From positions 1 through 36,867 of the IMG/VR virus record IMGVR_UViG_3300045836_000068: 36,867 bases of DNA, one strand, 5' to 3'. How positions within the stretch are numbered: the stretch's first letter is position 1; each line of letters opens with the position of its first letter. The notes beneath the pieces are model-generated. The model ran no database searches. It saw only the letters and a program-made list of their open reading frames with translations, and was not told the DNA's origin. A program made the position numbers and the translations under genes. Origin of the DNA: a virus. Positions 2,444 to 22,120 of this stretch are shown here, piece by piece.

Positions 2444-2676
2444 TGCGGGGCCTTTGGGGCTGGTGGGAAAGAAACCGCCGTCGGCGCTTGTGGCGCTTGC
2501 TGTGCGGAGGGGGTGCCGGTCGCCTGCAAATTGGCGATGGCGTGATAGAAGCCGAGCGCGCCGAGGGCGTACTTGATCGCCTCTATGAGATCGGCATCCT
2601 TGTGGCCGGTGACGACGAGCCCTGTCCACAATGCGAACAGAAGAACGCATACGGCGAACTTCAGATACGTGTTCAT
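2440..2676 (-). CDS. Small membrane protein, holin candidate
   Basis: A 78-residue protein with a strong N-terminal transmembrane segment (about residues 5-25, FAVCVLLFALWTGLVVTG), then an amphipathic to hydrophobic helix (about 30-50) and a Pro/Ala/Gln-rich hydrophilic tail. Size and location directly after the endolysin gene fit a holin or pinholin. The ATG at 2676 has an excellent Shine-Dalgarno (GGAGGTT). Its start overlaps the endolysin stop and its stop overlaps the lipoprotein start. The holin role is inferred from context; two other membrane proteins of the cassette compete for it. Confidence 0.65.
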   Translation of the reverse strand: MNTYLKFAVCVLLFALWTGLVVTGHKDADLIEAIKYALGALGFYHAIANLQATGTPSAQQAPQAPTAVSFPPAPKAPQ

Positions 2677-3887: not shown

Positions 3888-5225
3888 TCAGTTGTATTCG
3901 TAGACAACGACTAAGCCGGCACCGCCATTGCCACCAGCCGCAGCTGCGCCGGTAGTGGCCTGAGCGGCTCCCCCACCGCCTGCACCTTTCGACGCCGAGC
4001 TACCGCCCGCTCCGTTAACACCAAAGGCCCCACCAGATCCGATCGGAGACGCAGCGCCCACACCCCCAAAGGAGGTGCTTTGGTTCGGGCTCGTCATGCC
4101 GAACCCGCCTGGTGCGCCCGAGCCAGAGAAGATGTTGCCGGCCGTTGTGACCGTGCCGCCTGTGGGAGGCTGAGTAAAAGTCACGGTTGTGAACGCGCCG
4201 CCCGTATTGCCGCCGCTACCGCCGCCGCATACGATCAGCGTGCCGAAGCTAGAGGTTCCGCCTGCCGTGCCCGCATTGGCTCCGGCCGCGCCGCCGGATC
4301 CTCCCGCGCCAACCGTTACGGTCACACCGGAGAAAGCGGAGGTGATGCGCCCTACGCTGTACGCGCCCGCCGCGCCGCCGGCCGCCGCATCGTAGTTGCT
4401 GGCACCAGGCGAACCCACCCCGCCGCCGCCACCACCACCGCCGAGGACGGCAACGATGACGCTGTTCGTCCCGGGTGTCGGTGTATAGGTGCCGCTCGAA
4501 GTGAAGACCTGAACGCCAATCAGCGTGCCGGTCGGATATCCCCATACCGGATCGGACGACGCACCCGCACTGATGAGCGCTTGGCCGGCCGTGCTCGGGG
4601 CGACCTGCGTAATCGCGCCCGTCCCATTTCCGACTTGCACCGCATGCGCTGTACGCGTTGCAAGCCCGCTGCCGCCTTGCGATACGGATAGCGGTGTCGT
4701 CAGTCCGGAGAGCGAAGTGATATTCGCGTTCGCGCCGCTCGTAGCGATCGACGAATTGCACTGAAAGCCCGAGCCGTTCGTCCACTGCAGCGCTTGCGCC
4801 GCGCCGTTGCAGCCGGCCACAGAAATCGCGGTAACGCTTGCCGTCGAACCCGTCGCATTCCCCAGCAGCGTATTGGCGCCGGCCTGCGCCAGGTTGCCGT
4901 ACGTGATGCCGTTAGTGAGCGACTGGAAGGCATACGTGCCCGCGCCGGTGCGCGTCAGAAAGCCCGTTGACGAGAAGCCGCTGATGTTGTCGAGCGCCGT
5001 ACCGCTTGCGGCACTAGCGTTCGTGCCACCGTTTGCTACTGGAAGGATCCCAGTGAGCGCAGTAGCAGAGACGTTCCCCCAAGTCGGAGCACTCGATGCG
5101 CCGCTGGAGATAATCGCCTGACCGGACGTCGATCCGGTTGGTGTGAGCAACTGAACCGGAATCGTCGTCGCGCCAAACGAAACCGAGGCAAAAAGTGCGA
5201 GAAGCGCAGAGATCATGCGTTTCAT
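3888..5225 (-). CDS. Glycine-rich tail fibre-like protein with Sec signal peptide
   Basis: A 445-residue protein. It starts with a textbook signal peptide (MKRMISALLALFASVSFGA, cleavage likely after Gly18 or Ala19). Next come fibre repeats rich in Ser/Thr/Gly/Asn (TALTGILPVANGGTN, LSVSQGGSGLATRTAHAVQVG). The C-terminal third is very rich in glycine (a GGGGGGGG run after VAVLGG) and ends LVVVYEYN. This C-terminus matches the glycine-rich fibre-tip domains of many phage tail fibres, in which polyglycine helices pack around receptor loops. A Sec signal on a fibre is odd, because virions assemble in the cytoplasm. AAGGAA lies six to seven bases before the chosen ATG. It may be a receptor-binding fibre or an exported adhesin. 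Confidence 0.78.
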   Translation of the reverse strand: MKRMISALLALFASVSFGATTIPVQLLTPTGSTSGQAIISSGASSAPTWGNVSATALTGILPVANGGTNASAASGTALDNISGFSSTGFLTRTGAGTYAFQSLTNGITYGNLAQAGANTLLGNATGSTASVTAISVAGCNGAAQALQWTNGSGFQCNSSIATSGANANITSLSGLTTPLSVSQGGSGLATRTAHAVQVGNGTGAITQVAPSTAGQALISAGASSDPVWGYPTGTLIGVQVFTSSGTYTPTPGTNSVIVAVLGGGGGGGGVGSPGASNYDAAAGGAAGAYSVGRITSAFSGVTVTVGAGGSGGAAGANAGTAGGTSSFGTLIVCGGGSGGNTGGAFTTVTFTQPPTGGTVTTAGNIFSGSGAPGGFGMTSPNQSTSFGGVGAASPIGSGGAFGVNGAGGSSASKGAGGGGAAQATTGAAAAGGNGGAGLVVVYEYN

Positions 5226-5237
5226 GTTTTATTCCTT

Positions 5238-7727
5238 TTAGTAGCGTGCCTTGATGGTCATTTTCGAAAGCGCTCCGCCGCCCTCAGTCACGGTGCCGCC
5301 GCTGGTCTGAGTGACGCGGATATCAACGGTGTCGCCAGAATTGAGATCGCCAATTTCGATGAACCCACCACCGAACCACTGATAGGTCGTCGTCACATAC
5401 CGCATCTTCTGCGCTCCGTTCACATAGACGTCGACCGTGACAGCGTTCGCCGTCAGCGTGGCAAAGTAGACGGCGGCATGGACTTCCACGTCCTTGAGCG
5501 CTTGCGGAGCCGTGAATTGACCTGTCGAGGTGTTGTAGCCGTTGGAAAAACGCCCGGTAGTGTCGGCGTTATTCAACACGCCCGTGTATTTGACAACGGT
5601 CAAAGCACCGCTCGTGAAGGGCTGGCTTGCCGTGGTATTGACTTCGAGAATCCGGCGGTGCGAGAAATGAACGATGCCGCCAGTGATGCCGGATAGCCCC
5701 TGCACGAAGTTCGGGCCGAACGACACGTCATCGCAATACACGTCGCACGAGCCGCCGCACGAGATATTGGCGAACGTGCGCGCGACCGTAGCGTGAAAGT
5801 AGTTGCCATGAAAAATGAGACGCCCGATGAACGTGTTATCGGTCTGCACGAAGGCGAAGGCGTTCTGCGTATGAACGCAGTTGCAGCCGATGAACTGAAT
5901 GCACCCTTGCTGCGGCGAGCCGTTGCCGCTCGTGTTCAGGGTGGTAGCCAGCGGGCAGGCCGGCTCCAGGACGGCGTTGCACACAGAAATGTTGCCGTAG
6001 AGCACGATGCCTTGAGACACCGACACGAGCGGCTGAATTTCGACGAGCGAGCCCGTCGATACCGCCGGATGCAGCAATTCCCCGCCGGTGATGTTCACCG
6101 TCGCGCCGATGGCGATGACCGTCTTTTGCGTGAGCGCTTGCCATCCCGCATTGCCGGAGCCATAGCCCGAGATCAGGTTGGCGCCCTGCACGTTCACAAC
6201 CGTCTGCACGCCCATGGCCTGCAGCGCGACCGGGCAGCCGTACGTGTAGCCGCCGCGCATGTTGATCTCGCTGACCTGATCATCGGGGCGCGCCGTGTTG
6301 CCGAAGGCGTAGCCGACCTTAGCCGCGACGACCGGCATGTTGGCGAAGTCCAGATATGCGACGGTCTGGCTCGATCCGGTTGTGTATGCGTGAACGCCGT
6401 AGCTGTAGTTCGTGTTGTAGGCAGCGTTGATGACGAGCCTGCCATTGATCGTGACGTCGGACGAGTTGATCAGCTCGAGCACGCAATCTGTGGCTGACGT
6501 CGCGATGCCAACGAGCGAGCCGCGGCCCTGCAGTGCCATGCCGTTTGCACCGGAGAGCGTGACCTTAGTCACCGAGAAATTGCCGGTGACGTCGAGCGTC
6601 AGATTGCTGGCCTTTGCCCAGGCGAAGGCATTCATGATCTGCGTCGATGCATCCGTGCCATCCGTCTTCGCGCCAAACTGACCGAGGCTAACCACATGCG
6701 TTTGAGCGAGCAGCCAGCAACCGGTAGCGCCGCCGTACGTGGAAGCTATGATCGTGCCGCCGTTTGCCAGCGACTGCGAAGTCGATGCACTGTAGTAATA
6801 GCCCCCGCCACCAGCATCGCCGGGCAGGTAGTAGCCTGTAGCGAAAGCTCGCGTGTAGATGGCGGGGTTGAGCGCGGCCATCTCTGATAGCGAGCTACAC
6901 ATGCGTCCGAGCACGTTGCCCCACGAGAGCTGTGCATCGCCCACCGTTCCTGCAGCTGGCGTGTAGATTGAAAGCGTCGTGCCGCCAACGACGTCGACGT
7001 TCTGCACGCCTACCGGAATCGCTGCGTTGAATACGATCTGCGTGCCGCTGATCGTATAGCTGTCCTTCTCCTGATAAGCCCCGTCGAAGGCCACAAAGAC
7101 ATTCGCTACATTGCCGTACGCCTTTGAGAGATTGAGCGTCGTCGTGACGCCCGCGGTAAAGTCCGTGCCAGCTTTGAACCCCGGCTTACCATTGCTGCCG
7201 AGTTCCGCCGTCAGGTTGCCGGCACCTACGCTTGCCGTGATCGGATAAGTCGCTACGTTGCCGTTCGCATCAAATCCGACCAGCGTCAATGCGCGCGCGG
7301 GCGCGGGTGGAAACGTCAGATTCAGCGTGGGATCGCTGGAAGGCGTTTGCAGCGAATTGGCGATCTGCTGGGCAAGTTGCTGGATGGCCAGCATCTCGTA
7401 ATCGAGCGCACCCTCGACCGCATCGGGGAAATAGTTCGACTGGTTCTGCAGGTCGGTCAACTGCTGCAGCGGTACCGTGCGCACGAGAGTAAGCGTCGTG
7501 CCCTGGGCGATCGGCGACCCCGAGAGTGGATAGGTGATCGTGCCGCCGTTCGGCAAGCCCAGCCCGGAAACCGAGAACGACGAAGACGGGATCGTCGTCA
7601 CAGAGCCACCAGACGTCAGGGTAAGCGTGATCTGAGAGACGTTGCCGATCTCAAAGTTGAACGGCCAGACGGTCGTGGATCCGTTGCCCTGCCAAATGGC
7701 TTTGTTGCTCGTTGTCGAGATCGTCAT
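5238..7727 (-). CDS. Tailspike with T7-type N-terminal anchor and beta-helix
   Basis: An 829-residue protein. Residues about 1-125 match the N-terminal anchor domain found on podovirus tailspikes: GNGSTTVWPFNFEI, GTTLTLVRTVPLQQLTDLQNQ and the helix FPDAVEGALDYEMLAIQQLAQ. From about 345 the pattern GQFGAKTDGTDASTQIMNAF marks the start of a right-handed pectate-lyase-like beta-helix, typical of depolymerase tailspikes. The C-terminal part (about 690-829) looks like a beta-sandwich trimerisation or carbohydrate-binding domain. It should attach to the tail and bind or cut surface polysaccharide; the catalytic residues cannot be named from sequence alone. Translation start is unusual: the strong Shine-Dalgarno serves a three-codon frame just upstream. 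Confidence 0.88.
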   Translation of the reverse strand: MTISTTSNKAIWQGNGSTTVWPFNFEIGNVSQITLTLTSGGSVTTIPSSSFSVSGLGLPNGGTITYPLSGSPIAQGTTLTLVRTVPLQQLTDLQNQSNYFPDAVEGALDYEMLAIQQLAQQIANSLQTPSSDPTLNLTFPPAPARALTLVGFDANGNVATYPITASVGAGNLTAELGSNGKPGFKAGTDFTAGVTTTLNLSKAYGNVANVFVAFDGAYQEKDSYTISGTQIVFNAAIPVGVQNVDVVGGTTLSIYTPAAGTVGDAQLSWGNVLGRMCSSLSEMAALNPAIYTRAFATGYYLPGDAGGGGYYYSASTSQSLANGGTIIASTYGGATGCWLLAQTHVVSLGQFGAKTDGTDASTQIMNAFAWAKASNLTLDVTGNFSVTKVTLSGANGMALQGRGSLVGIATSATDCVLELINSSDVTINGRLVINAAYNTNYSYGVHAYTTGSSQTVAYLDFANMPVVAAKVGYAFGNTARPDDQVSEINMRGGYTYGCPVALQAMGVQTVVNVQGANLISGYGSGNAGWQALTQKTVIAIGATVNITGGELLHPAVSTGSLVEIQPLVSVSQGIVLYGNISVCNAVLEPACPLATTLNTSGNGSPQQGCIQFIGCNCVHTQNAFAFVQTDNTFIGRLIFHGNYFHATVARTFANISCGGSCDVYCDDVSFGPNFVQGLSGITGGIVHFSHRRILEVNTTASQPFTSGALTVVKYTGVLNNADTTGRFSNGYNTSTGQFTAPQALKDVEVHAAVYFATLTANAVTVDVYVNGAQKMRYVTTTYQWFGGGFIEIGDLNSGDTVDIRVTQTSGGTVTEGGGALSKMTIKARY

Positions 7728-7728
7728 G

Positions 7729-7753
7729 TCAGGTCTTCATGGTTTTTCTCCTT
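7729..7753 (-). promoter_or_regulatory. Three-codon leader frame at the tailspike RBS
   Basis: On the minus strand AAGGAG (7753-7748) is followed after seven bases by ATG AAG ACC TGA (7740-7729). One base later the tailspike ATG begins at 7727. The tailspike start is 20 bases from AAGGAG and in another frame, so ribosomes should load at the tripeptide frame (Met-Lys-Thr) and reach the tailspike by re-initiation. This could set the tailspike dose. Confidence 0.5.
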
Positions 7754-7807
7754 GTGCTGTCCAATGTGCGCGGATAGGTCGTGTGAAGGATGTACCGTTC
7801 TCGGCGC

Positions 7808-10800
7808 TCAAGGCTGGGTTTCGGATTGGGCTTCGGCTTCTTCTTGCATCTGCTGCATCCGCTCTAAATCTTCGAGCGGGGCGATTTGCTGGAACTTCGA
7901 GAGGCGATTGCGGTTGAGCCGTGCTTGCGGGTTCATCGCGTATTTTATGGTCGCCCGCTGCTCTTGGGGTGTGAAATGCGCGCCTTCCATCTTCTCGATT
8001 GCGTCCTGCATGTCGCCGTTCTTGATGTCTTGCTTGATGCCAGGCATGGCGCGCGTCACTTCGTCCTGGTGCCGCTTCTCTGCGTCGAACATAACACCCA
8101 CTTCGGGGCCGCCGGGCGCGCCCTTGGAGAACGTCATGCCGAGCAATGGACCCACGGTCTTGAGCGCATCCACCTCGTCGCCGTGGCCGCTCATGAGGTG
8201 ATAGCCCGCGACGATCGAATCGACCGGTACTTGCTCTTGCAGAATGTTCCAGGTGATGTTGCCGACGGCGTCGAGCATTCCCTTAAGGCCCGGCTCGTTC
8301 TCGTCGTAGACCTTCTGGCCGAAGCCCTTGTCGTTCGTGAAGGCTTGGATGAGCGGCCGCGCGATCGTGCCTTGCTTGCGCTTGAGCATCTCGATCGGGC
8401 TTGTGAGATAGCCCTGGAATTCCTCGCCGATCTTGCCGGTCGGCAATCGCACGTAGACCGCGGTGCCGTCCGGTTGCGTCTTGAAGAAGATGCGGTTCTC
8501 CTTACCCGGCTCGTTTCGCGACTGCGGAAACAGTGTGTCGAGCCGCAATGCATCCGCCGGATTGGACTCGGCGCGCGTGAGGTAATCCTTGAAGCGCATC
8601 GCGTAGCCAGCGAGGATCGACGGTACGCTTTTGTCGCGCTGAATAGCGTCCATCGCGTTCTGCATGATGGCGTTGCCGGCGTACTGTAGCGCAATGTCCA
8701 TGACGAACGCATGTATCGCCTTTTGCCGTGCTGCGCTGACTGCGGCCACACGCCCCGCTTCCCCGGCGTCGCGCAGGATCTGCGCTTGCACGTCGCGCGG
8801 CAGGCCCGTGAAGACGTCCTTCATGGCACCCAGGTTGCCAAGAGTGAACGTGCGGGAGAAGAGTGCGAGGTTCGCGAACTTGCGCGCCATGGCGCTCATC
8901 GCCTCGTTCGGCAGCGCGCCGGCGTAGCGATTCGCAAAGTGCGCTGCCAGGCGCGAGGCTGTCTGCGGACCGACGCCCTTGCGGATCATGTCGCGCTCTA
9001 GGTTCGTGAACAGGCCCATTTGCAGGTCGGCCACGCGATCCCACAGCAGCGTGTTGTGCCAAACATCGCCGGCCTTGTCGACGGCCGCCTTGATAGCGTT
9101 GGCCGCTCCTTCGGCACCCTCGAACCCGGCTTTTGCCGCAAGCGTAGCCGGCGCGGCGGCAACCTGCGATGTAAGGCTGCGCCCGGGCTTGATGTCCGGT
9201 TCTTCGATGAGGCCGGTGATGTCCTGATTGAAGAATCGATGCCCGATCGGCACGAGCCCCGCGTCGAGCGCGCGGCGCATCGTCACCGGGTCGTGTTTCG
9301 CGGCATTGCCTTCGAAATAGACGCGGCCAGTGAGCACCTTGCCAGGTAGCGCCGGCAGCGCGCGCCCCCACTCCACCATGTTGTGGATGAGCGGCGAGTA
9401 CATGATGACGCCCATCGTCTTGCCCTTGAGCGCCATCAAGCTGTTATAGATAGCGCCCGACTTCTCGGTCATGATCGCTTTCAGCGGCCCCTCGAACTCC
9501 TTGCTGATGTAGAGCGGCACGCGCTCAAACGTCTTCGTGCCATCCTCGGCAGAGGCGAATCGGTACGTCTTGAATGACGGATGATCGACCGTGAAGAACT
9601 CGGGCTTTTCGCCGGTGCTCACGAGTTCCTGCCCGGTTTGCAGGCCGATCTCCTTGATGCGGTTGACGAGCTCACGCCCGGCGATCGCCTTCTCGATGCG
9701 CGCCATTGCCATCGGCATCGTGCGAATGTCCCGCACGACCTGCGCGCCCTCGCCGAACTTCGCCTGCGCCGCCGCTTCCGTCTCGGCCGTCGTCGCATGC
9801 TTGCGCCCCTTCAGGGAACCGGCGCTCGTCGAGATATTGCCGCCGCGTCCTTCGGCGCTCGCTGCGCGCTCCATCGGCGGCGCACTCACCTCGCCGTCCT
9901 TGCTGATCATGGCGATCATGCGCGGCGTCCAGTAGGCCACGCCTTCGCCCTGGAACATGCCGACGTCGCGCGCGCGCTGAAGCAGCGAATTGCCGTACTG
10001 GCTGAGCGTCTCGACCGTATTGCGCTCGTCGTCGGTCAACCGGCCAAGCCCCTTGGTCGGGTCGACGATGCCGTGCGTGCGCAGATCGTTCTCCTCGTCG
10101 GCCGCGTTCCACATCTTCTCGCGCTGCTCTTTTGTGTAGCCGCGCTTGAGCAAGTCGTCGAACGCAGACCACTGCCATTGCGCCTTGCGCATCGCGTTGG
10201 CGGCGTCCTTGGCGACAGCCATCGCGCGATCAGAGCCGGCCGCCATTGGCGCGGTCTTCATCTGGATATCGCGCACCCCGGCCTCGAAGGCCGTGCCGAC
10301 CTTCTGCCCGACGTCCGTTTGCATGACGCGGCCGCCCAGATCCTTGAGCGCTTCGATCGCTTCGTGCGGCGCCAGGCCCGAGTGCATGAGGGTGATATCG
10401 CCCTTGCCTGCTTCGTAGGCGTGGGAGAGAGTCGGCTCGATGCGTCCGAGCAGGTCAGGCTCTCCCTGCGCTTCCGGTTTTTCACCCTCAGCCGCGGGGG
10501 TTTGCTCCGGCGATAATTCGGCGGGTTTCTGCGCTATTTCCGCCGCAGATGGCGCTTCCTCCTCAATAGGCCCGGGCACCGGCGTTTCCGGCTCCAGCGG
10601 CCGAATCGCTTTCATCGCGTCGCTGACCGGAACGCCAACCTGAGCCCGGCGCATGTATGGCTGAAACGCTGCTGGCACCGAGACGTCCGGATTTTTCATC
10701 TCTTCGCCGATCGACGGATCGATGCGCGTTTGCTCGAGCGCCGTGGCGGGGCTGATGCCGGTCTGCGAGTACGTCGCGCGCAGGCTGCTCTCCACCGATG

Positions 10801-11563
10801 CCACCGTCTCCGGCTTGGCGTCGGCTCCAGCAATCTGGCGCGCCGCGTTTTGCATGTCAGCGCTCGTGACGCGCTCGCCGGCCATCTTGCGGCCCAGTTC
10901 GCCGAGTAGCAAGGCGGGCAGCGTCTGGATCGCAGCAGAGGTAAGAGCGCCGGCCCAGGCGGCTGTCTTCGGCCCCGCTCCGTGCGCTTGCAGAAAGTCG
11001 GCAACGTTGTAGCCGGCGGGCAGGCTCTTCTCGTTCAGGTATTCGAGCGGGGCCTGCGCGGCGCTGGCGAGCCGCTGGCCGGCTTGGGTATGCGGCTGGT
11101 ATGTGAGAGCGTGCGAGACGTTCTCGGCGATCTGCTCGGGGTCCACGTTCGCGCCTAGCGCCTTCGCAGCAAGACCGGCCGCGCCGGAAACGATGTAGCC
11201 GGGAAAGCCGAAGATCGCACCGGTTGCGACGTTCGCGGCAGCTTCGAGCGGCCCTACCACCGTCCCGATATCCATGGCATCTTGCGCACCGGCTTTCCCG
11301 AGAGCATGCCCGAACGCGGCCAATCCAGAGGTCGGCAGCCCGTTGCTCGTGTTGTGGGCGTCGATCAGTGCATTGCCGGCCGCTTGCGCAAAACTGCGGT
11401 TTGCCTCAGCCATGTCTGGCTCGCCCTTCGGTGCGCCCAGATAATTCGTGATCTCTTGAGGGCTGAACCCGGCCTGAGAGAGCTTCGTGCTTTCGCTTGC
11501 GCGATAGTCACTGATCTCCTCGGGCGAGAACCCGGCGGCCATGAGCTTATCCATCGTGCCCAT
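7808..11563 (-). CDS. Very large internal virion/ejection protein
   Basis: A 1251-residue protein in the position of T7 gp16-type ejection proteins, after the transglycosylase-bearing ejection gene. The N-terminus carries two short repeats of the form AGFSPxEIxxY (MAAGFSPEEISDY and SQAGFSPQEITNY), often seen in large virion proteins of Burkholderiales podoviruses. The middle has a Pro/Glu-rich linker (about 325-370) and the rest is mainly helical with amphipathic and moderately hydrophobic stretches (for example GALTSAAIQTLPALLLGELG), fitting a protein that crosses or lines the cell envelope during DNA entry. No enzymatic motif was found. ATG follows the previous gene in a TGATG overlap. The role comes from gene order and size. 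Confidence 0.75.
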   Translation of the reverse strand: MGTMDKLMAAGFSPEEISDYRASESTKLSQAGFSPQEITNYLGAPKGEPDMAEANRSFAQAAGNALIDAHNTSNGLPTSGLAAFGHALGKAGAQDAMDIGTVVGPLEAAANVATGAIFGFPGYIVSGAAGLAAKALGANVDPEQIAENVSHALTYQPHTQAGQRLASAAQAPLEYLNEKSLPAGYNVADFLQAHGAGPKTAAWAGALTSAAIQTLPALLLGELGRKMAGERVTSADMQNAARQIAGADAKPETVASVESSLRATYSQTGISPATALEQTRIDPSIGEEMKNPDVSVPAAFQPYMRRAQVGVPVSDAMKAIRPLEPETPVPGPIEEEAPSAAEIAQKPAELSPEQTPAAEGEKPEAQGEPDLLGRIEPTLSHAYEAGKGDITLMHSGLAPHEAIEALKDLGGRVMQTDVGQKVGTAFEAGVRDIQMKTAPMAAGSDRAMAVAKDAANAMRKAQWQWSAFDDLLKRGYTKEQREKMWNAADEENDLRTHGIVDPTKGLGRLTDDERNTVETLSQYGNSLLQRARDVGMFQGEGVAYWTPRMIAMISKDGEVSAPPMERAASAEGRGGNISTSAGSLKGRKHATTAETEAAAQAKFGEGAQVVRDIRTMPMAMARIEKAIAGRELVNRIKEIGLQTGQELVSTGEKPEFFTVDHPSFKTYRFASAEDGTKTFERVPLYISKEFEGPLKAIMTEKSGAIYNSLMALKGKTMGVIMYSPLIHNMVEWGRALPALPGKVLTGRVYFEGNAAKHDPVTMRRALDAGLVPIGHRFFNQDITGLIEEPDIKPGRSLTSQVAAAPATLAAKAGFEGAEGAANAIKAAVDKAGDVWHNTLLWDRVADLQMGLFTNLERDMIRKGVGPQTASRLAAHFANRYAGALPNEAMSAMARKFANLALFSRTFTLGNLGAMKDVFTGLPRDVQAQILRDAGEAGRVAAVSAARQKAIHAFVMDIALQYAGNAIMQNAMDAIQRDKSVPSILAGYAMRFKDYLTRAESNPADALRLDTLFPQSRNEPGKENRIFFKTQPDGTAVYVRLPTGKIGEEFQGYLTSPIEMLKRKQGTIARPLIQAFTNDKGFGQKVYDENEPGLKGMLDAVGNITWNILQEQVPVDSIVAGYHLMSGHGDEVDALKTVGPLLGMTFSKGAPGGPEVGVMFDAEKRHQDEVTRAMPGIKQDIKNGDMQDAIEKMEGAHFTPQEQRATIKYAMNPQARLNRNRLSKFQQIAPLEDLERMQQMQEEAEAQSETQP

Positions 11564-13743: not shown

Positions 13744-14279
13744 TAGCCGAACACCCCTTGCGAGTTAAATGTCGTCCACTTGTTCGCCACCGACGACGCG
13801 CCCCCGATGAGCGAGGAGAACGCGCCGAGCGCGCCGGCTGACGAGGCACTCGCTGACTGAGACTCGAGCAACGATGCCTGGCCCGAGAAGTCGTTGCCCT
13901 GTGCCCGGAAGCCGTATGCCGTGCGCGCCGCATTGTTGCGGATCGTCTGCGCGTCGAGTTCGCCCAGCGCCGCGGTGTCGCCTTGAATGCGCCGCGACGA
14001 GCCTTGATTGGGGTCGATGCCGGCGGCCGCCGTAATGGCGCGCTGCTCGGAGATCACTTGCGCGGTCTGCTCCCGCTTGGCCGCTTCCTGCTGCTCGCCC
14101 TGCTGAAGCGCGACCTGTGCATTTTGGTCCGCGATCTTTTGGTTGTTCAGCGCGACTTGCGCCTGATAATCGGCCGCCTGAGACTGCGCAGACGCCGACT
14201 GCGCGGCGCCATAGGCTGAGACACCCGCCGAGACGGCGGTTAGAGCGAGTGCGGCATAGGGTAGTGCGGCGACGCCCAT
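13743..14279 (-). CDS. Small internal virion protein (T7 gp14-like position)
   Basis: A 178-residue protein that starts with a hydrophobic/Ala-rich segment (MGVAALPYAALALTAVSAGVS), continues with a long Gln/Ala-rich helix (about 25-95) and ends with a Gly/Ser/Ala-rich region. The pattern MG-(hydrophobic)-GAAQSASAQSQAADYQAQVA is typical of virion or ejection proteins of podoviruses in the T7 gp14 position, whose N-terminus can insert in the outer membrane on ejection. It stands directly before the transglycosylase-bearing protein and is coupled to it by TAATG. The gp14 equivalence is from order and composition. Confidence 0.7.
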   Translation of the reverse strand: MGVAALPYAALALTAVSAGVSAYGAAQSASAQSQAADYQAQVALNNQKIADQNAQVALQQGEQQEAAKREQTAQVISEQRAITAAAGIDPNQGSSRRIQGDTAALGELDAQTIRNNAARTAYGFRAQGNDFSGQASLLESQSASASSAGALGAFSSLIGGASSVANKWTTFNSQGVFG

Positions 14280-14717
14280 TTAGTTTTTCTCCATCCAGAA
14301 ATGCCGAAGCCCATCGCGCTCGGGCTCGATGTTAAATCCCAACCATTCGATCCAGGCGAGCGCCCGGGTATAGCGCGCGTCGGTAAAGTTTTCCAATCGA
14401 TAGGCGACGTCGAGCGCTCGATTCAAGATGCGCCGCGTGGCACGACCGAATGCGATCGGATGGCGTTCAACCGCGTCGGTCGTCAGTATCCAGGGCACGC
14501 CCACGCCGCTCGCGAGATCCGGCATCGAGAGCCCCAGGACCGCCGCTGGCTCGCCGTCGATCACGATGCATTCGCTCGCAAACGAATCGCGCATCGAGCG
14601 CTCGATTGCCTCGACGCCGTCCAAGCCGAGCAGGAGCACCTCGGCCGCGTCGCCAGCGCGCAGCCGTGCGCCGACATAGCGTGCATCCTCCAGCGTCGCG
14701 GTGCGTAACGTGAGCAT
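14280..14717 (-). CDS. gp13-like virion assembly protein (GNAT-like fold)
   Basis: A 145-residue protein with the layout of T7 gp13-type proteins (DUF2833), which are built on a GNAT acetyltransferase-like fold: an N-terminal strand and helix (LRTATLEDARYVGARLR), a central beta-hairpin (ECIVIDGEPAAVLGLSM), PWILTTDAVERHP, and the ending ALAWIEWLGFNIEPE. In T7, gp13 is needed for assembly of internal proteins. Lying between the nozzle and ejection genes agrees with that. The acetyl-CoA loop is not clearly conserved, so catalysis is doubtful. Neighbours overlap or abut (TGATG upstream; stop adjacent to the next ATG). Confidence 0.75.
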   Translation of the reverse strand: MLTLRTATLEDARYVGARLRAGDAAEVLLLGLDGVEAIERSMRDSFASECIVIDGEPAAVLGLSMPDLASGVGVPWILTTDAVERHPIAFGRATRRILNRALDVAYRLENFTDARYTRALAWIEWLGFNIEPERDGLRHFWMEKN

Positions 14718-17700
14718 CAGGTATCCCCCATCGAGAGGTAGGGCATAAAGCCCAGCACAGTCGCCGGCAGGGGATTGTCTTGCACCACGGCAATCTGGCC
14801 TTTCTCGTTAAAGTTCGGGTCGAGGTTTATGAGTTCGTCCCCCGTCACCATCGGCTCGGGAAAGCCCATCGGGATTGTCGTGCGTTCCTTGATCTCGTAG
14901 AGCGCCTGCCCGAGCGGCCCGACTTTCAGCCCGCGCGTGTTGGCCACACGCAGGATTACGCGGCTGATCTTCTTGCGCTTGCCCTGCACCGTCGGCTCCT
15001 GCTGACTCGCGACATCGATATAAAGGCTGTCGATCTCGGCCGTGTAAGGCAGCCCCACGACGATCGCATCAGCCGCCTCGGTAAGCGTGATCGATCCGTT
15101 CACCACCGTCTGCTGAGGCTGCACCCCGCCGTTTGCCAAGCAAGCTACCGTGCGTCCTTCCAGGTGATCCAGGCCCGAGACGGTCTTGACCGGCATCGTC
15201 ATCGACCATTGGCCCGCCGGGACCGGCCAAGGGCTCGTCAAGGGTTGCTCCAGATTCACGGTGATCTGCGTCGCGGAGTTGACCTGCGTCACGGTACCGA
15301 CGCCGCCGGATATGCGCACGGTCTTGCCGACGTCCTTCGCTGCGTCGAATACGGATGCTGAGGCGTTGATCGTTATGTTCTGCTGCACAATCGGCGTGAT
15401 GACAGCACCTTTCCCGACGCCGGTCGGATCGGTGACGACGATCTCCGGGCGGATCCAGCCCGAGCCAGGCGTGCACGTAGCCGCGGTGATGACGCCGGCT
15501 ACGATCGTAAGCGTAACGCCCGAGCCGCTGCCGCCTGCCTGCGGAATGGTTGCGCCGCCATCAATGACGGTCGCCACGGTCTGCGCAGAATAGCCGGAGC
15601 CGCCGTAGACAACGTGAGCGTTTGCGGCCAGCGTCGATTGCCCCTTTTCGGACGAGGGCGTCGCTGTCGCCTGTGGGTAGCTGAGCGGGTAAGCCAGCCC
15701 GGCATCCACGAACCACGCCTGCGTGATATCGGTGAACACTCGGCTCGCCATGCGCTCGACGTAGTTCACGTACTGACCGTTCACGAGGCGCTGCACGACG
15801 AGATACACCGCGTTTTCGCCATTCTCGACTATCGAACAGATCGATTTGACCAGGCCGTCTGTGACGTGCTGGGCCCAGGCGATGACGTTCTGCGATGGCA
15901 GATAGGTGAGAGAAAGCAGGATGCCGTCGTCGCGCACGCACCAAAGGATGCGAAACGGCTGCTCGGCCCACGCCCATTCGACAATCTTGTGGCCGAACAC
16001 GAAATGATTCGAGAGCAGCGTGAGCTCGTTATCGGCCCGGAACAGATTCTTCAAGAAGTCGTACTGCATCGCGCGCACGGTCGATTGCAGGTTTTGCACG
16101 AACAGAATCTCAAAGTCGATCACGATCGGCGGCACATCCGAACAGCCGTACGCGCTTTGCGGCCGCGCCATCACATTGGATGGCGTCATGGCCTGCGTCG
16201 TGTCGCCCGTGTCGATGCGCCACACGTTCGAGCTTGTCATTGCGAGCAGAACATTGAGCGGCACCAGATGCTTGATCGCGTTGACCTGCTGCGCCTCGAG
16301 CGATACATCGATGGAGTCGTCCGCGCGCGTCGGGCTCGAATAATCCATGTTCGTGTAGTCAGCGCTGCGCGACATGACCAGGCGCACCGGTTGCGATGCC
16401 GTGCCGCCGTACACCTGTCGGCCCTGATAGTAGGTCGTGGCGCCCGGCCAGTTCGTACCGGAGAACGGATTGTTCGCGAGAGGCGGCGTCTTCGTGAAGT
16501 CGGGCGTGATGTTCGAATCGACGAAGCTCGTGGTCGTGGTCGATCCGACGAACCCGAATAGGGATCCGCTCGAAGCGCTACTACCCGGAACCTCGGCCTG
16601 CCGATAGACGTTGTACGCCGTGATGCCGGAACTGCTCGACGCGGTCCACGAAACGGTTTCGTGCACGCCGGCCGTCGTCGACATCGTATTGGAGTTGGCC
16701 GCTGTCGCCACGGCGCTGGCCGCGCTCTCCGTCACGCCGTTGGAGCCGACGGCAGTGATGACGTAGTTGTAGCTCGTGCCGGCGCCGGTCGCGGACGGCG
16801 TGGCTGTGGGTGAGGTCGGTGCGCTCAGGGCAGGTTGAAACGCGAGCGGCGTAAAGGTCCAAGCGTTATCGGCGGTGCGCGTGAGTTGCGACTGTTGATA
16901 GAGCGAGTGCGTGAGCGTCATCACGTCGGCGCTCTGCGTGAATTTGAGCACCGCCAGGTCATTCGGATCGTACGGCACTGCCAAGGTATAGACGGTCGAA
17001 AGCGAACCGCCCCCGCCGTACGTGCCGTAGTTCGTGGTGTCGATCGGATTGCCGAACAGGTCGTATAGCTGAAACGTCTTCGTGCCGGTGTTCAGGTTCG
17101 TCACGATGGCAAACCGCCCCTGCAATCGGGGCAGGCCAGTGATGCCCGAGAGCCATACCCAATCGGTCGGGCTCGGATCGCTGCCTGTGTACGTGACGAC
17201 GCCGGGTTTGGAGTTCGATATCGCAGTGATCGACTGAGCCGGATTAAGCACCGCAGCGCCGTTCGTGAAAACGCGCATGCGCCCGGTATTGGCCGATGCC
17301 GTCCCGCCCGATGTGTACGCATGCGTAAAGGTGCTTCCAACGAGGTCGACATGCGAACCGTCAACGACCGAAATCGGCCAGGTCCCATTGGCCTCGACCG
17401 TGCCCAGCACGCCCGAAACCGTCAGGCGGTTGCCGTACATGAGCCCGGCGGTGGAGTTCAATTGCAAACGAATTGCGCCGCCGTTGTTTGCCGCGCCGGT
17501 GACGGTACCGGAGAATGCGGGCCCAGCGCCGAAGCACAGCGCGTAGGTCTGCAGCGTTGAGAACGTGAAAGGGATCAGGCGCGAGGTCAGCGTCGAATCG
17601 AGGCACTGCAATGCGTATTCAGTGCCGGCGCGATTGCTCGCGCCGCCGCGGAAGTCGACAAAGAAGTTCTTCATCAGCGCCGCGCCGCTGTGGTACTTCG

Positions 17701-17776
17701 CCATGTCGACGCGGTCCCACAACTGCGGCGACAGTTCCCCGGAGCTAAAGCTGAACTGATTGATCGGCTCGCTCAT
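14717..17776 (-). CDS. Tail nozzle (T7 gp12-like tubular protein B) with Fn3-type insert
   Basis: A 1019-residue protein. The N-terminus (FSSGELSPQLWDRVDMAKYHSGAALMKNFFVDFRGGASNRAG) closely follows the signature of large podovirus nozzle/tail tubular B proteins. The beta-rich N-terminal half includes a fibronectin type III-like module at about 325-420 (APTSPTATPS, YNYVITAVGSNGVTESA). Later parts include VAWAQHVTDG and GRTVACLANGGVQ, which are common in this family. It is expected to form the distal tube of the short tail. The TGA of the adaptor gene is immediately followed by this ATG or vice versa with no gap. The family call is strong; the Fn3 module is a likely surface-exposed addition. 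Confidence 0.85.
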   Translation of the reverse strand: MSEPINQFSFSSGELSPQLWDRVDMAKYHSGAALMKNFFVDFRGGASNRAGTEYALQCLDSTLTSRLIPFTFSTLQTYALCFGAGPAFSGTVTGAANNGGAIRLQLNSTAGLMYGNRLTVSGVLGTVEANGTWPISVVDGSHVDLVGSTFTHAYTSGGTASANTGRMRVFTNGAAVLNPAQSITAISNSKPGVVTYTGSDPSPTDWVWLSGITGLPRLQGRFAIVTNLNTGTKTFQLYDLFGNPIDTTNYGTYGGGGSLSTVYTLAVPYDPNDLAVLKFTQSADVMTLTHSLYQQSQLTRTADNAWTFTPLAFQPALSAPTSPTATPSATGAGTSYNYVITAVGSNGVTESAASAVATAANSNTMSTTAGVHETVSWTASSSSGITAYNVYRQAEVPGSSASSGSLFGFVGSTTTTSFVDSNITPDFTKTPPLANNPFSGTNWPGATTYYQGRQVYGGTASQPVRLVMSRSADYTNMDYSSPTRADDSIDVSLEAQQVNAIKHLVPLNVLLAMTSSNVWRIDTGDTTQAMTPSNVMARPQSAYGCSDVPPIVIDFEILFVQNLQSTVRAMQYDFLKNLFRADNELTLLSNHFVFGHKIVEWAWAEQPFRILWCVRDDGILLSLTYLPSQNVIAWAQHVTDGLVKSICSIVENGENAVYLVVQRLVNGQYVNYVERMASRVFTDITQAWFVDAGLAYPLSYPQATATPSSEKGQSTLAANAHVVYGGSGYSAQTVATVIDGGATIPQAGGSGSGVTLTIVAGVITAATCTPGSGWIRPEIVVTDPTGVGKGAVITPIVQQNITINASASVFDAAKDVGKTVRISGGVGTVTQVNSATQITVNLEQPLTSPWPVPAGQWSMTMPVKTVSGLDHLEGRTVACLANGGVQPQQTVVNGSITLTEAADAIVVGLPYTAEIDSLYIDVASQQEPTVQGKRKKISRVILRVANTRGLKVGPLGQALYEIKERTTIPMGFPEPMVTGDELINLDPNFNEKGQIAVVQDNPLPATVLGFMPYLSMGDT

Positions 17777-18529
17777 TCAGATCACCAATGTGAGCGGGAA
17801 CGGGTCGACAAACCACCCCGCGCCTGGCATCTGTGCCCAATCGCTGAGGATGCCGCGCACGCGAATCCAATCTGGCGTCTGGTCGATGATCGTGGGGCCT
17901 TCGTTGCCGTTCATGCCGGCCGCCTCCCGCGTCATTGCCGCGGCGTGCTGAAACAGCGACATGGCGTGCTGCTTGTCGCCGGTGAGCGGTCCAGCCAGCC
18001 GCGCTGCTAGGTAGTAGGTCAGCGCGTCGACGAACATCGGATCGAACAGATTCGGGTTCGACACGCGTACGGTGTAGACGAGCTGAGCCTGCGGCACGTT
18101 GGTCAGGATGACCGGGATGGCGTTGCCGGTGACGTCGTTGTCCTGCGCCACGATGAAGCGAGCCATCGGCATCTGAGGCTGAGGCGGCTGCCAGTCGCCG
18201 TTGATCGATGCGCCAGCCGGGTTCGTCATCTGCGGCAGCACGCCGTAGGCGAGCACGCAATCGGACGGATAGGCGTATTCGTACATCCACGGCTGAGGAA
18301 CCGGCTGAGGCGGCGTAAGTGTCGCGTCGTTGAGCAGCGCGAGATTGATCTGCTTACGCGCGAAGTTCCAATGCGCCGCGCGCAGCACCGCTTCCTTCGC
18401 CTGCTCGTAGTGTCTAGCGCATGCCTGTCCCTCGGCCGAGTTCTCGCCAATCGCAGAGATCGATGAGCGGCAATGTGCCGCGTCAAGCGCGAGATTGCAG
18501 ATCGCTACATCGGAGGTTGCCACGCCCAT
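17777..18529 (-). CDS. Tail adaptor (T7 gp11-like tubular protein A)
   Basis: A 250-residue, mainly helical protein with the family pattern: SDVAICNLALDAAHCRSSISAI near the start, GQACARHYEQAKEAVLRAAHWNFARKQ (the conserved ARxxYxxARxxxLRxxxWNFA region), WMYEYAYPSDC, and FVDALTYYLAARLAGPLTGD. These proteins form the ring joining portal and nozzle. It is followed without a gap by the nozzle gene, the same order as in T7-like and BPP-1-like phages. Confidence 0.87.
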   Translation of the reverse strand: MGVATSDVAICNLALDAAHCRSSISAIGENSAEGQACARHYEQAKEAVLRAAHWNFARKQINLALLNDATLTPPQPVPQPWMYEYAYPSDCVLAYGVLPQMTNPAGASINGDWQPPQPQMPMARFIVAQDNDVTGNAIPVILTNVPQAQLVYTVRVSNPNLFDPMFVDALTYYLAARLAGPLTGDKQHAMSLFQHAAAMTREAAGMNGNEGPTIIDQTPDWIRVRGILSDWAQMPGAGWFVDPFPLTLVI

Positions 18530-18532
18530 CGC

Positions 18533-18874
18533 TTAGCCCTTCCCGTACAGCTTGTTGGCGTTCTTGCTGTAGCGTTCGGCCGCGTCTTCCTTCGCCTCCT
18601 CGTCTGGCAACTCCTCGAGCGCCATCTGCTGAATCTGCACGCTCATGCACTTGTCGACGCCGTACTCGATCGACTCGGACGTGCGGCACACCTCGCCGCA
18701 CACGTAGAACGCGATCTGAGAGCCGAGCGGGGGCAGTTCCTCGATGCCGAGCTTTCGCAGTTCGACGAGATCCAGCGTGAGGCGCAGACCGCACGGATAG
18801 GGGTTCGTTGCGTATTCCTCGGGCGAGTAGTCGTCGGGCCCGCGTGCCATATCGACAATCTTCGAATCAGCCAT
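18533..18874 (-). CDS. Small structural protein, possible capsid staple-like
   Basis: A 113-residue protein with a small beta-barrel-like pattern: CGLRLTLDLVELRKLGIEELPPLGSQIAFYVCGEV, then MSVQIQQMALEE, and a charged helical C-terminus. This sequence of LRLTLD-(helix)-LGI-ELPPxGS-(strands)-VxIQxMxL is common in small phage head proteins, some of them called capsid staple or decoration proteins. Mature residues include several cysteines. The ATG at 18874 has a GGAG-type signal (AAGGAGCCCAGC). The structural role is likely; the staple name is tentative. Confidence 0.6.
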   Translation of the reverse strand: MADSKIVDMARGPDDYSPEEYATNPYPCGLRLTLDLVELRKLGIEELPPLGSQIAFYVCGEVCRTSESIEYGVDKCMSVQIQQMALEELPDEEAKEDAAERYSKNANKLYGKG

Positions 18875-18884
18875 GCTGGGCTCC

Positions 18885-20144
18885 TTACGGTGTGAGCGCG
18901 TAAAAGAAGTTGGTGCCGTCGCAAAACGACGTGTAATGGCTAGGGGGCGTGGACACAGGCGTGAGAACACCGCCGACGAGGTGCCCCGCAATGACCTGAA
19001 CCGCCGGCTGTTTGCCAAAGAGCGTCTTGTACATTTGCGTGGCGCGCGGCGTTGGGATGGCGTTGATCGTTTGGCTGTCGACCGTTTGCGACTTATTGAC
19101 CGTCCAGCTTGAGCCGCTGCCGCCCGTAATCTGGGTCCCCGGCAAAATCGGAATGTGGTTCACCGGATCGGCGCTGACGATGAAATGGTTCGTCGCAAGG
19201 TGGCCGCTACCTTGCGTGAAGGTCCCGGTCGTGAGTGTTGTGCCGGAAATCGAGCCGGTGAAGATCGGCAGGTCCGTTCCCTGCATAGGCGCGTTGGGGC
19301 CGCCGGACCACGAATTCCAATAGCAGTGATGGTCGACGTTTCCTTGGCTGAACCAGAAGTACATCGCCTTGATGAACTCCGGATTGTCGCCGTGTCCGTT
19401 CGAACCACGATCGCAGGACCACTCCGGATAAGCTTCCGGCTTATTGTGAGCTTGAGCAAAAGACCGCAATTCGCTCAGTCCGCCAGCAATAACGCCACTG
19501 CCGCCATTGAGCAACGTTGACCATCCGCTGTTGTACGAGTCGTAGAAGTCGCCGCCGATGATGTCGACGTATGAGTCGCCAGGGTAAGCAACGCTCCAAT
19601 CGGAACTTGAACTGGACGGATCTATATTCCGACCTGAAGACGGGCACCACAAAAACCTCACATTTGGTGCATTCGCCCGAATAAGCGGCACCACGCGCTT
19701 CCACGCGTTCTTAAAATCGGTGATCGTATTCCACGCCGAATTACCGCTGCCGTATCCCCATTGATACCAGTCGCCGTTGAACTCCCACCCAAGACGGATC
19801 ACGACCTGGCTGTGCAGGCTTCCGAGGTTGTTGTTTAGGTTCTGGCCAAGCTGCGTCCAATACGTGTCGCCTGCGCCGGCCGCCACATCGGATAGCTTGA
19901 CTCCAGACGAACTGACGCTAGTGAACGGGCACAGTCCAATCGACAGAATCTCCTGGAAGTTCGGCCCCTTCGACAGCCACGTCTTGGTCGCGCTCATGAA
20001 CGAGGGCGACGCGATATGCGCCCACGTGTCGTAGGCGCCGAACACCGTGCGCGTATAGATCTGCTGCCCGAGCCACGTGCTGAACGAGTCGTACTGCGAC
20101 GTCGTGGTGTCGGATACAGAATGCATCCCGATCCTGGCCGTCAT
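18885..20144 (-). CDS. GH26-like glycoside hydrolase, accessory virion or secreted enzyme
   Basis: A 419-residue protein. Residues about 1-290 read as a (beta/alpha)8 glycosidase close to family GH26 (mannanases and related endo-enzymes): the acid/base motif RLGWEFNGDWYQWG with Glu121, the YPGDSYVDIIGGDFYD stretch (188-202) common in GH26, and a likely nucleophile Glu241 in AYPEWS. The C-terminal 120 residues are beta-rich (TGSISGTTLTTGTFTQGSGHL) and could bind sugar or attach to the particle. It has no signal peptide. The start overlaps the stop of the collagen-like gene (ATGA), so both are made together. It lies between head and tail genes where an enzyme is not expected, so it may be a polysaccharide depolymerase. 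GH26 identity is likely; substrate unknown. Confidence 0.75.
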   Translation of the reverse strand: MTARIGMHSVSDTTTSQYDSFSTWLGQQIYTRTVFGAYDTWAHIASPSFMSATKTWLSKGPNFQEILSIGLCPFTSVSSSGVKLSDVAAGAGDTYWTQLGQNLNNNLGSLHSQVVIRLGWEFNGDWYQWGYGSGNSAWNTITDFKNAWKRVVPLIRANAPNVRFLWCPSSGRNIDPSSSSSDWSVAYPGDSYVDIIGGDFYDSYNSGWSTLLNGGSGVIAGGLSELRSFAQAHNKPEAYPEWSCDRGSNGHGDNPEFIKAMYFWFSQGNVDHHCYWNSWSGGPNAPMQGTDLPIFTGSISGTTLTTGTFTQGSGHLATNHFIVSADPVNHIPILPGTQITGGSGSSWTVNKSQTVDSQTINAIPTPRATQMYKTLFGKQPAVQVIAGHLVGGVLTPVSTPPSHYTSFCDGTNFFYALTP

Positions 20145-21076
20145 GGGTTCACCACTTGGACGGAGTAGCTTTCGACCGCGATGGTGTCGGCCGCGTTGGC
20201 GAGCGTCGCGGTGAACACCAGGTTTTGCGCAACGGTCGTATCCACCGACAGGACGGTCGGCGCAGTGCCCGTCGTCGTGTACGAGTTGATCGATGGCCAG
20301 ACGATCTGCTGATTCGTGACGTTCCGATTGGCGATGCGGATCTTCACGCGCACGCCGGCTTGCGTCGTTTGGGTTGTCGTGAGAACGGTCTGACCGCCGA
20401 AGGTCACAGCGACGGTCTTGTTGTTCGCGTTGTTCGTGAACGAGAACTGCACGTCGACTTCGAGCGCGCCGTCTGTCGTCAGCGTGTTGCCCTGGATCGG
20501 GATCGTAACTAGCGCAGTCGTGGAGGTCGTGCCGGTGACGGAATGGCTTGCACCGTCCTGCGCGATGGCCTTGCCAGAGCTTGATCCGGCTGGACCTTGC
20601 GGACCTGTCGGACCTTGCGGGCCAGTCGCGCCGGTTGCCCCCGTCGCCCCCTGCAGGACGAGCAAGCCCCAGTTCGAGGTATTCGTCGGCAGGACGTTCG
20701 ACGTGTTGGCGACATTGCACACATAGCCAGAGCCGTTGTAGGTAACGAAGTCGTTTACCTGATACGTGGCCGCCGCACTGTAGGCGCCCCGGTAGTTGAC
20801 GCCTGCTCCTGCGGGACCTGCTGGGCCTGCGGGGCCTGCGGGGCCTTGAACGCCCTGCGGTCCTTGTCGCCCAACCACCGGTATCGGCGTCGTCTCCGGC
20901 GGGATCTGATTGCCCGCCATGTCGCGTTCGACATTGTTCTGATCGACGTACCCGACCACAAGTCCATTCGGATCGACGAGCCAGCCGATATGCGGAACAA
21001 CGGTAAGCTGCGCGTTCGCAAGCAGCGATGAGCACAGAAGCAGCGATGCTAGGAGGAACTTCTTCACGAATTTCAT
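20141..21076 (-). CDS. Collagen-like protein with Sec signal peptide
   Basis: A 311-residue protein. A signal peptide (MKFVKKFLLASLLLCSSLLANA, cleavage likely after Ala22) precedes a short beta domain (HIGWLVDPNGLVVGYVD). Then comes a collagen-like Gly-X-Y run at about 72-92 (GPQGVQGPAGPAGPAG), a small domain with the pattern RGAYSAAATYQVNDFVTYNGSGYVC that resembles chitin-binding-like CBM5/12 modules, a second collagen-like run at about 143-165 (GATGATGATGPQGPTGPQ), and a beta-sandwich C-terminus (about 170-311). Collagen repeats are used for trimeric stalks of phage fibres. The signal peptide suggests export instead of direct virion assembly. The gene is coupled to the GH26-like gene by ATGA. 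Confidence 0.8.
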   Translation of the reverse strand: MKFVKKFLLASLLLCSSLLANAQLTVVPHIGWLVDPNGLVVGYVDQNNVERDMAGNQIPPETTPIPVVGRQGPQGVQGPAGPAGPAGPAGAGVNYRGAYSAAATYQVNDFVTYNGSGYVCNVANTSNVLPTNTSNWGLLVLQGATGATGATGPQGPTGPQGPAGSSSGKAIAQDGASHSVTGTTSTTALVTIPIQGNTLTTDGALEVDVQFSFTNNANNKTVAVTFGGQTVLTTTQTTQAGVRVKIRIANRNVTNQQIVWPSINSYTTTGTAPTVLSVDTTVAQNLVFTATLANAADTIAVESYSVQVVNP

Positions 21077-21079
21077 GGC

Positions 21080-22120
21080 TTAGTTCCCCAGGTATTCAAC
21101 CGCAAAGCGCGCGGCGTATTGCATAGCCGTTGTTCCCGCCGACGCATACCCCGTCGTGGCAATCTGGATGTTGGTCCCCGCCTTCGCATAGACAGTCACA
21201 TTTCCCTGCGAAGAGGTGTTGATCGTGTTTCCCGTCGAAGTCGCGCCTACGTTTGCGCTCGGCGTGCCGCCGCTATCGGAGTCGGTCCAGAAGACAGTTC
21301 CTTGGGGCATCGTCGAGGAAGGGGTACCCCCGCTTGCCGCCGTGGTGACGATGCCGGTGAAGACCACGCGATACCGGCCGGCTTGACCCACAGGAACCGC
21401 ATAGATCGTTTGCTGCGCAACGTTTGCCGTTTGAGCCGTGAAATTCAGCGTGGCCACCGTGATCGGGATGCCGAGGCTCGCCGTCGAAATCCCGTTGTAG
21501 CTCGTGATCGTGCCGGGAACCGCGAGCGTCGAGGGAATCGAAAGCGTGACGCTGCCCGCGCCGTTCGCCACCGAAATCTGATTGCTCGTGCCGGTGAGCG
21601 TCGCTTTTACAGGAGCGGCCCCCGTCGAGCCGATCAGCAGTTGCCCATTCGTCGGCGCCGCGGTGGTCGTCAAAAGACCGCCGGTGCCGGAGTAGAGAAA
21701 GCTGTTGGCAGTCAGGCCGCTATCGGTGACGCTCGATCCGGTCAAAGCCGTGAACGTACCTGCCGCTGCGGCTGTGCCGCCGATCGCCGGCGGCGAAGCG
21801 AGGTAGGTCGTAAATCCCGATCCGCTCACAGCACCGGTTGCCGAGAGCGTCGTGAAGGAGCCCGCTGCGGCGGCCGTCCCGCCGATGGCGGGCGGCGACG
21901 CCAGATATGTCGTGAAGCCCGCGCCGCTGACCGTGGACGACGCGGATAGCGTTGTGAACTTACCGGAGGATGGTGTCGTGTTGCCGATCGCGGCGCCGTC
22001 GATCGTGCCGCCGGTGATGCTCGCAGTGCCTGAGGCGCTCCCGCCGCTGGCAACCGCGCGTAACTCCGCGTGAGCGCCGACGCTCATGAAGAGCATCAGC
22101 GCAAGAAGGGCCCTCTTCAT
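21080..22120 (-). CDS. Repeat-rich fibre protein with Sec signal peptide
   Basis: A 346-residue protein starting with a signal peptide (MKRALLALMLFMSVGAHA, cleavage after Ala18). The N-terminal part has fibre repeats, including a 34-residue unit (GFTTYLASPPAIGGTAAAAG followed by FTTLSATGAVSGS) present nearly twice at about 68-122. The C-terminal part (about 225-346) resembles the terminal head domain of many phage tail fibres (VPVGQAGRYRVVFTGIVTTAA, FWTDSDSGG, ARFAVEYLGN). A good Shine-Dalgarno (GGAGGG) precedes ATG 22120, and the start overlaps the stop of the 113-residue gene (TGATG). Probably a fibre or adhesin; exported according to its N-terminus. Confidence 0.75.
   Translation of the reverse strand: MKRALLALMLFMSVGAHAELRAVASGGSASGTASITGGTIDGAAIGNTTPSSGKFTTLSASSTVSGAGFTTYLASPPAIGGTAAAAGSFTTLSATGAVSGSGFTTYLASPPAIGGTAAAAGTFTALTGSSVTDSGLTANSFLYSGTGGLLTTTAAPTNGQLLIGSTGAAPVKATLTGTSNQISVANGAGSVTLSIPSTLAVPGTITSYNGISTASLGIPITVATLNFTAQTANVAQQTIYAVPVGQAGRYRVVFTGIVTTAASGGTPSSTMPQGTVFWTDSDSGGTPSANVGATSTGNTINTSSQGNVTVYAKAGTNIQIATTGYASAGTTAMQYAARFAVEYLGN
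21755..21919 (-). repeat. Near-tandem 102-bp coding repeat in the fibre gene
   Basis: The 34-codon unit encoding GFTTYLASPPAIGGTAAAAG plus linker occurs nearly twice with a 102-bp period. The peptide core is identical, while the DNA differs at many third positions (for example tacctcgct against tatctggcg). This points to an old duplication kept by selection on protein. Confidence 0.7.

Follow-up and report, generated by a model that had tools for sequence, protein, structure and literature searches.

Predicted Sec signal peptides on three fibre-type proteins of a temperate phage: candidates for free fibres released at lysis

Why would a tailed phage send fibre proteins across the membrane of its host? 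Tailed phages are generally assumed to build every one of their fibres in the cytoplasm. The complete IMG/VR virus record IMGVR_UViG_3300045836_000068 (36,867 bp, analysed over its whole length and called the window below) is, judged from its gene content, a temperate podovirus-type phage, and it encodes three fibre-type proteins, P0001, P0002 and P0003, for which an earlier note had claimed Sec signal peptides. Translation and rule-based scoring located these signals and confirmed that all three proteins start with a predicted, textbook signal peptide of the Sec/signal peptidase I (SPI) type. We lean slightly towards regarding them as tail-fibre-type proteins that carry a Sec signal in place of the usual virion-attachment domain and that would be released at lysis as free fibres. 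Proteins predicted to follow this route are called exported fibres below. Their features in the window are as follows.

3888-5225, minus strand: P0001, exported fibre of 445 amino acids (aa) with a signal peptide, a Cys-pair stem module and a glycine-rich tip
5169-5225, minus strand: P0001 signal peptide, MKRMISALLALFASVSFGA, predicted by rule score and kept by essentially all full-length relatives
4758-4889, minus strand: P0001 stem module, with Cys139 and Cys156 invariant in 56 exported fibres, a putative disulphide
3900-4499, minus strand: P0001 glycine-rich tip, Pfam Gly_rich_2, as in the tail fibre of cyanophage Pam3
21080-22120, minus strand: P0003, exported fibre of 346 aa with a signal peptide, repeats and a C1q/TNF-like tip
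22067-22120, minus strand: P0003 signal peptide, MKRALLALMLFMSVGAHA, kept in L284, L002 and L004
21083-21472, minus strand: P0003 C-terminal jelly-roll tip, residues 217-346, AlphaFold pLDDT 60-91, C1q/TNF-like matches
20141-21076, minus strand: P0002, exported collagen-like fibre of 311 aa, a CBM5/12 module flanked by two collagen stretches
21011-21076, minus strand: P0002 signal peptide, MKFVKKFLLASLLLCSSLLANA, kept in L046, L047 and L284, with an N-terminus free of a signal peptide in its place in L283

Signal peptides were scored by a rule of our own, which looks for a positive n-region, a nine-residue uncharged core and small residues at positions -3 and -1. Translation of 3888-5225 gives MKRMISALLALFASVSFG followed by ATT for P0001, that of 20141-21076 gives MKFVKKFLLASLLLCSSLLANA followed by QL for P0002, and translation from the ATG at 22120 gives MKRALLALMLFMSVGAHA followed by EL for P0003. 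The scores were 5.1 for P0002, 4.9 for P0003 and 3.4 for P0001, which has the weakest c-region and scores lower because this region reads SFG/FGA and not A-x-A. The start codons are well supported, since ribosome-binding sites precede P0001 (AAAGGAA) and P0003 (GGGAGGG), and the ATG of P0002 comes directly after the stop codon of P0003. Residues 2-18 of P0002 form a helix in the AlphaFold model. Family searches found no match to a virion-attachment domain in the N-terminal parts of the three proteins, where the signal peptide stands instead. Among the 41 gene models of the window, this scoring, our version of the prediction proposed in the earlier note, picked out only P0001-P0003 and three small proteins of the lysis cassette (holin-like, lipoprotein and spanin-like). 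Hydrophobic N-termini can arise from high-GC open reading frames (ORFs), and chance or wrong start codons might have produced those seen here. None of the 119 spurious ORFs of at least 80 aa in the window scored 4 or more, the ribosome-binding sites are good, and the signal is kept across several families; the spurious-ORF scoring and the conservation rule this explanation out, and we leave it next to no probability.

Viral contigs encode full-length relatives of P0001, and these also start with signal peptides, which differ in sequence. When the 55-residue stem module from P0001-type exported fibres (alignment A1) was used as a fresh query, 87 of 90 distinct module-bearing ORFs were positive by the rule, two more (P0001 of the window and L148) were recognised by eye, and one was truncated. 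In an independent set of whole bacterial genomes, the module was carried by 15 of 299 in a family-level sample drawn around a Paraburkholderia, as against 2 of 398 in a sample across the phylum; the 20 module loci comprised 17 with a signal peptide, one cut by the end of the locus and two apparently decayed with remnants. Many carriers are Paraburkholderia and Caballeronia prophages, and several phages have at least two such exported fibres. A separate search with another type of N-terminus (QFTPGQ...LTAAQLN) found a signal peptide in all 23 proteins containing it. The earlier note had named close homologues as the place where its idea could fail, and there the hydrophobic N-termini are kept. 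Direct tblastn searches with P0001-P0003 gave almost no matches, and the route from P0001 to phage BcepC6B ran via L057; the first 25 kb of the window had no nucleotide match to named phages, and a plasmid search gave no match.

Several single records deserve mention. L254 and L258 are prophage copies in bacterial genomes whose starts are damaged, with readable remnants of the signal peptide. In L043, the frame from 4383 encodes a protein of 1,823 aa with a signal peptide and four Cys-pair modules, which suggests exported fibres outside the P0001 family. Shewanella phage vB_Sb_QDWS (L237, OK094664) and Hujiaoplasma phage zrk29-1 (OP650936) have the same match and an equal length of 47,902 bp, with unrelated hosts; in the former, an annotated hypothetical protein overlaps part of the exported fibre gene on the opposite strand.

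The cleavage site was aligned on the first residues of the mature protein (Q-S/T-Y-P-S-P or Q-F-T-P-G), independently of the scoring rule. In the 50 sequences aligned, position -1 was occupied 44 times by A and 6 times by G, and position -3 by A in 47, V in 2 and T in 1. Across 48 distinct proteins, not one of 432 core residues was polar (D, E, K, R, H, N or Q), and K or R was found near the start in all 48. The same proteins had 47 distinct signal 15-mers, and in the QSYPSP group identity was 0.39 in the signal versus 0.65 in the first 15 mature residues. The pattern looks like selection on the export function, not on the signal sequence. Alternatively, the hydrophobic N-terminus could stay uncleaved and serve to anchor the fibre in the tail or a membrane, given that none of P0001-P0003 has a recognisable virion anchor. 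This is very improbable in view of the small-x-small motif at -3/-1 just ahead of the conserved mature start, the positive n-region in every protein, and the even cysteine counts described below.

P0001 and gp19 of BcepC6B belong to a family that combines the signal peptide with an invariant Cys pair in an AANTxLxNxxG...C...C module. P0001 has both elements, and its C139 and C156 are invariant across the 56 aligned exported fibres; P0002 and P0003 are without this module and form separate families. The number of cysteines in the mature part of the exported fibres of this family was even in 67 and odd in 18 cases and never zero, a distribution to which, the sequences being related, no formal probability is attached. 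Relatives of gp19 that have no signal peptide showed no parity bias (14 even, 12 odd, 18 zero) and about one third of the cysteine density. The cysteine pattern of the P0001 family fits predicted disulphide formation in the periplasm.

The genomic position of the fibre genes bears on when they would be expressed. P0001 has the tailspike on one side and the lysis genes on the other, and BcepC6B gp19 and orf035 of Xanthomonas phage PBR31 both sit between tailspike and holin. The neighbours of the exported fibres in the window are listed here.

5238-7727, minus strand: ordinary tailspike with a virion-binding N-terminus, phrog_1640 match, directly upstream of P0001
18885-20144, minus strand: GH26-like protein without a signal peptide, a conserved neighbour that overlaps P0002 by ATGA
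14717-17776, minus strand: tail protein (the "nozzle" of the earlier note), phrog_376, in the same structural operon

All three were negative by the rule, in agreement with what the earlier note had said of them. Automatic choice of upstream ORFs was noisy, with several spurious picks, and the use of upstream genes was therefore limited to their spacing and to a few loci read by hand. A long ORF lies upstream in 53 cases; 41 of these fibre genes start no more than 25 nt from its stop codon and 11 overlap it. The exported fibre of L187 lies inside the baseplate operon, that of L199 behind a gene for a baseplate wedge protein. Such tight packing within, and coupling to, structural operons argues for late co-expression. 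The fibres might instead be surface or matrix adhesins made by the lysogen, exported by Sec and possibly passed across the outer membrane by type II secretion of the host, like Legionella Lcl, a bacterial gene product that is type II secreted. The collagen plus CBM5/12 architecture of P0002 and the many prophage carriers would suit such a role, which we nevertheless consider quite unlikely, since late structural genes are tightly packed and start-stop overlapping with the fibre genes. Of the earlier interpretation, the export design and its conservation stand, and expression in lysogens is less supported, because the genes lie inside operons for capsid and tail, baseplate, or tailspike and lysis, to which they are often coupled.

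Two further ORFs were observed near the lysis genes. A lipase-like ORF with a GHSLGAALA motif (1575-2393, minus strand) adjoins them; in PBR31, an SGNH esterase with a signal peptide occupies the counterpart position (PMC10975493). A small ORF of the lysis cassette (2165-2509, minus strand) has the lipoprotein signal MKTTFAVSILTAATLSA followed by C and may encode an outer spanin or another lipoprotein.

The outer halves of the exported proteins are real virion-fibre domains. The C-terminus of P0001 is a glycine-rich domain related to the tail fibre of cyanophage Pam3, and the passenger domains of P0001 and its relatives are homologous to solved virion fibres. P0002 carries a CBM5/12 module with collagen stretches on both sides, and P0003 ends in a C1q/TNF-like jelly roll according to the AlphaFold model of residues 217-346 and its fold matches. 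The use of structure was limited to this segment, and nothing is claimed from models of the P0003 stem and most of P0002 because AlphaFold confidence is low there; a sequence search of the PDB with P0002 and P0003 gave no match. Fibre-type shafts and receptor-binding tip domains are present in the exported proteins.

The same domains also occur on other N-termini. Virion fibres of Klebsiella and Pectobacterium phages end in the same C-terminal domain as BcepC6B gp19, a domain that is also found on many contig proteins starting with MADTFRIIPY..., MSQGF... or MAGIKIS...; about 60 relatives in one set start either in one of these ways or with a signal peptide, never with both. In virion-anchored relatives, the predicted anchor takes the place of the signal peptide. 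The clearest case of this exchange is L283, where the GH26-like gene is 89% identical to that of the window and has the same overlap with its upstream partner. This partner shares collagen, CBM and tip with P0002 (69% over residues 136-307), sits directly behind the capsid genes, and has an N-terminus that is without a signal peptide and resembles that of the neighbouring gene. The GH26-like protein itself has no signal peptide; in the window its gene shows start-stop coupling to that of an exported partner, in L283 to that of a partner lacking the signal. In L284, the full P0003-P0002-GH26-nozzle order is found with both signal peptides retained, though diverged. The grouping of the three proteins as one set in the earlier note did not hold up: P0001 lies 15 kb away and has its own large family, and P0003-P0002-GH26 is a separate conserved cassette.

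The virion-fibre passengers, the location of the genes within structural operons (in some prophages among baseplate genes), and the distal part of P0002 on a signal-free N-terminus directly behind the capsid genes of L283 are also what decoration after release would lead one to expect. Here, export would serve periplasmic folding and oxidation, after which the fibres would attach at lysis to virions already released and join their receptor-binding apparatus. We judge this unlikely, as the particles would have to be completed in a diluted lysate, a virion-binding domain was not recognised at the N-terminus, and the window phage, BcepC6B and PBR31 already have an ordinary, separate tailspike upstream.

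From these results, a sequence of events leading to free fibres may be proposed. Translation would likely occur late, together with the capsid/tail and the tailspike/lysis genes, and would very likely be followed by Sec export and trimming by SPI. In the periplasm, it is fairly likely that the conserved disulphide of the P0001 family would close; the fibres would presumably trimerise and be stored there until lysis by holin, endolysin and spanin. They would then leave with the virions and bind cell-surface glycans. Their likeliest role would be to cover, as soluble receptor-binding proteins, the receptors of debris and neighbouring cells, protecting progeny and hindering rival phages; we favour it, tentatively, over decoration of released virions. 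Phage T5 Llp, a small receptor-blocking lipoprotein of the signal peptidase II type, is exported to the envelope and keeps receptors from trapping progeny. It is not a fibre, and its analogy with the exported fibres is functional only.

Several points weigh against free fibres. Export, cleavage, disulphides and absence from virions are predictions, and the signal peptides were scored by our own rule instead of SignalP. The disulphide argument is limited to the P0001 family because mature P0003 is free of cysteine and mature P0002 has a single one. In L064, L187 and L199, the exported fibre lies in or next to baseplate genes, possibly at the spot of the main tail fibre, which fits a particle-bound role too. 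Finally, no tips were shared between an exported fibre and the adjacent virion fibre within the loci compared; a self-decoy, in which the two would be the same, was rejected on this ground, and blocking of the phage's own receptor is without direct support because the tips differ.

The closest described proteins are the mosaic adhesive trimer (MAT) fibres of Bdellovibrio bacteriovorus, a superfamily of exported, tail-fibre-like trimers of a bacterium (PMC10769870). Like them, the exported phage fibres combine a signal peptide with a tail-fibre-like adhesin architecture and mosaic tips. The P0003 tip matched the fold of the MAT Bd2133 fibre tip (8ok3; Z 7.5, rmsd 3.8, 117 aligned residues), with C1q/TNF and other jelly rolls matching equally well or better. 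Unlike the phage fibres, MAT proteins are encoded by a predatory bacterium and are much longer. All MAT proteins have a conserved beta-rich domain of about 130 aa behind the signal peptide (PMC10769870). We do not claim MAT membership, since a PDB search with the P0003 family gave no sequence match to solved MAT fibres and the likeness lies in signal peptide, mosaic tips and fold. The C-terminal domains of gp47 of 8vbx, of the Pam3 fibre (7yfw/7ypx) and of the Klebsiella and Pectobacterium podophage fibres are homologous to those of exported fibres, but these virion fibres have, where read, virion-attachment N-termini and neither signal peptide nor Cys pair. P0002 is similar in architecture to Lcl, a secreted collagen-like adhesin (cited in PMC12239567). 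Bcep22-like fibres were rejected as a precedent, as BcepIL02 gp58-62 are without signal peptides.

BcepC6B gp19 and PBR31 orf035 are members of the P0001 family with the same position, signal peptide type and Cys pair, and their annotations read no more than tail fiber or putative structural protein. Export of orf035 is not mentioned in the genome section of the PBR31 paper (PMC10975493), nor elsewhere in the literature searched. The suggestion of an undescribed system agrees with our search of the open literature, with most subscription journals and all preprints outside it, which found neither a description of Sec-exported phage tail fibres nor proteomics of a carrier phage.

It is conceivable, though we put it forward with reserve, that many temperate Burkholderiaceae phages, along with a few other phages, make two kinds of fibre: those of the virion and, next to them, Sec-dependent receptor-binding proteins that are soluble, disulphide-stabilised, exported before lysis and active outside the particle, with tips freely exchanged between anchored and exported forms. 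The claim can be tested directly in the isolated phages BcepC6B and PBR31. If such proteins are exported, host-range predictions and catalogues of receptor-binding proteins that count them as parts of the particle would be wrong for these phages. The fibres would then represent a new class of phage-made extracellular adhesin, which may shape superinfection and competition.
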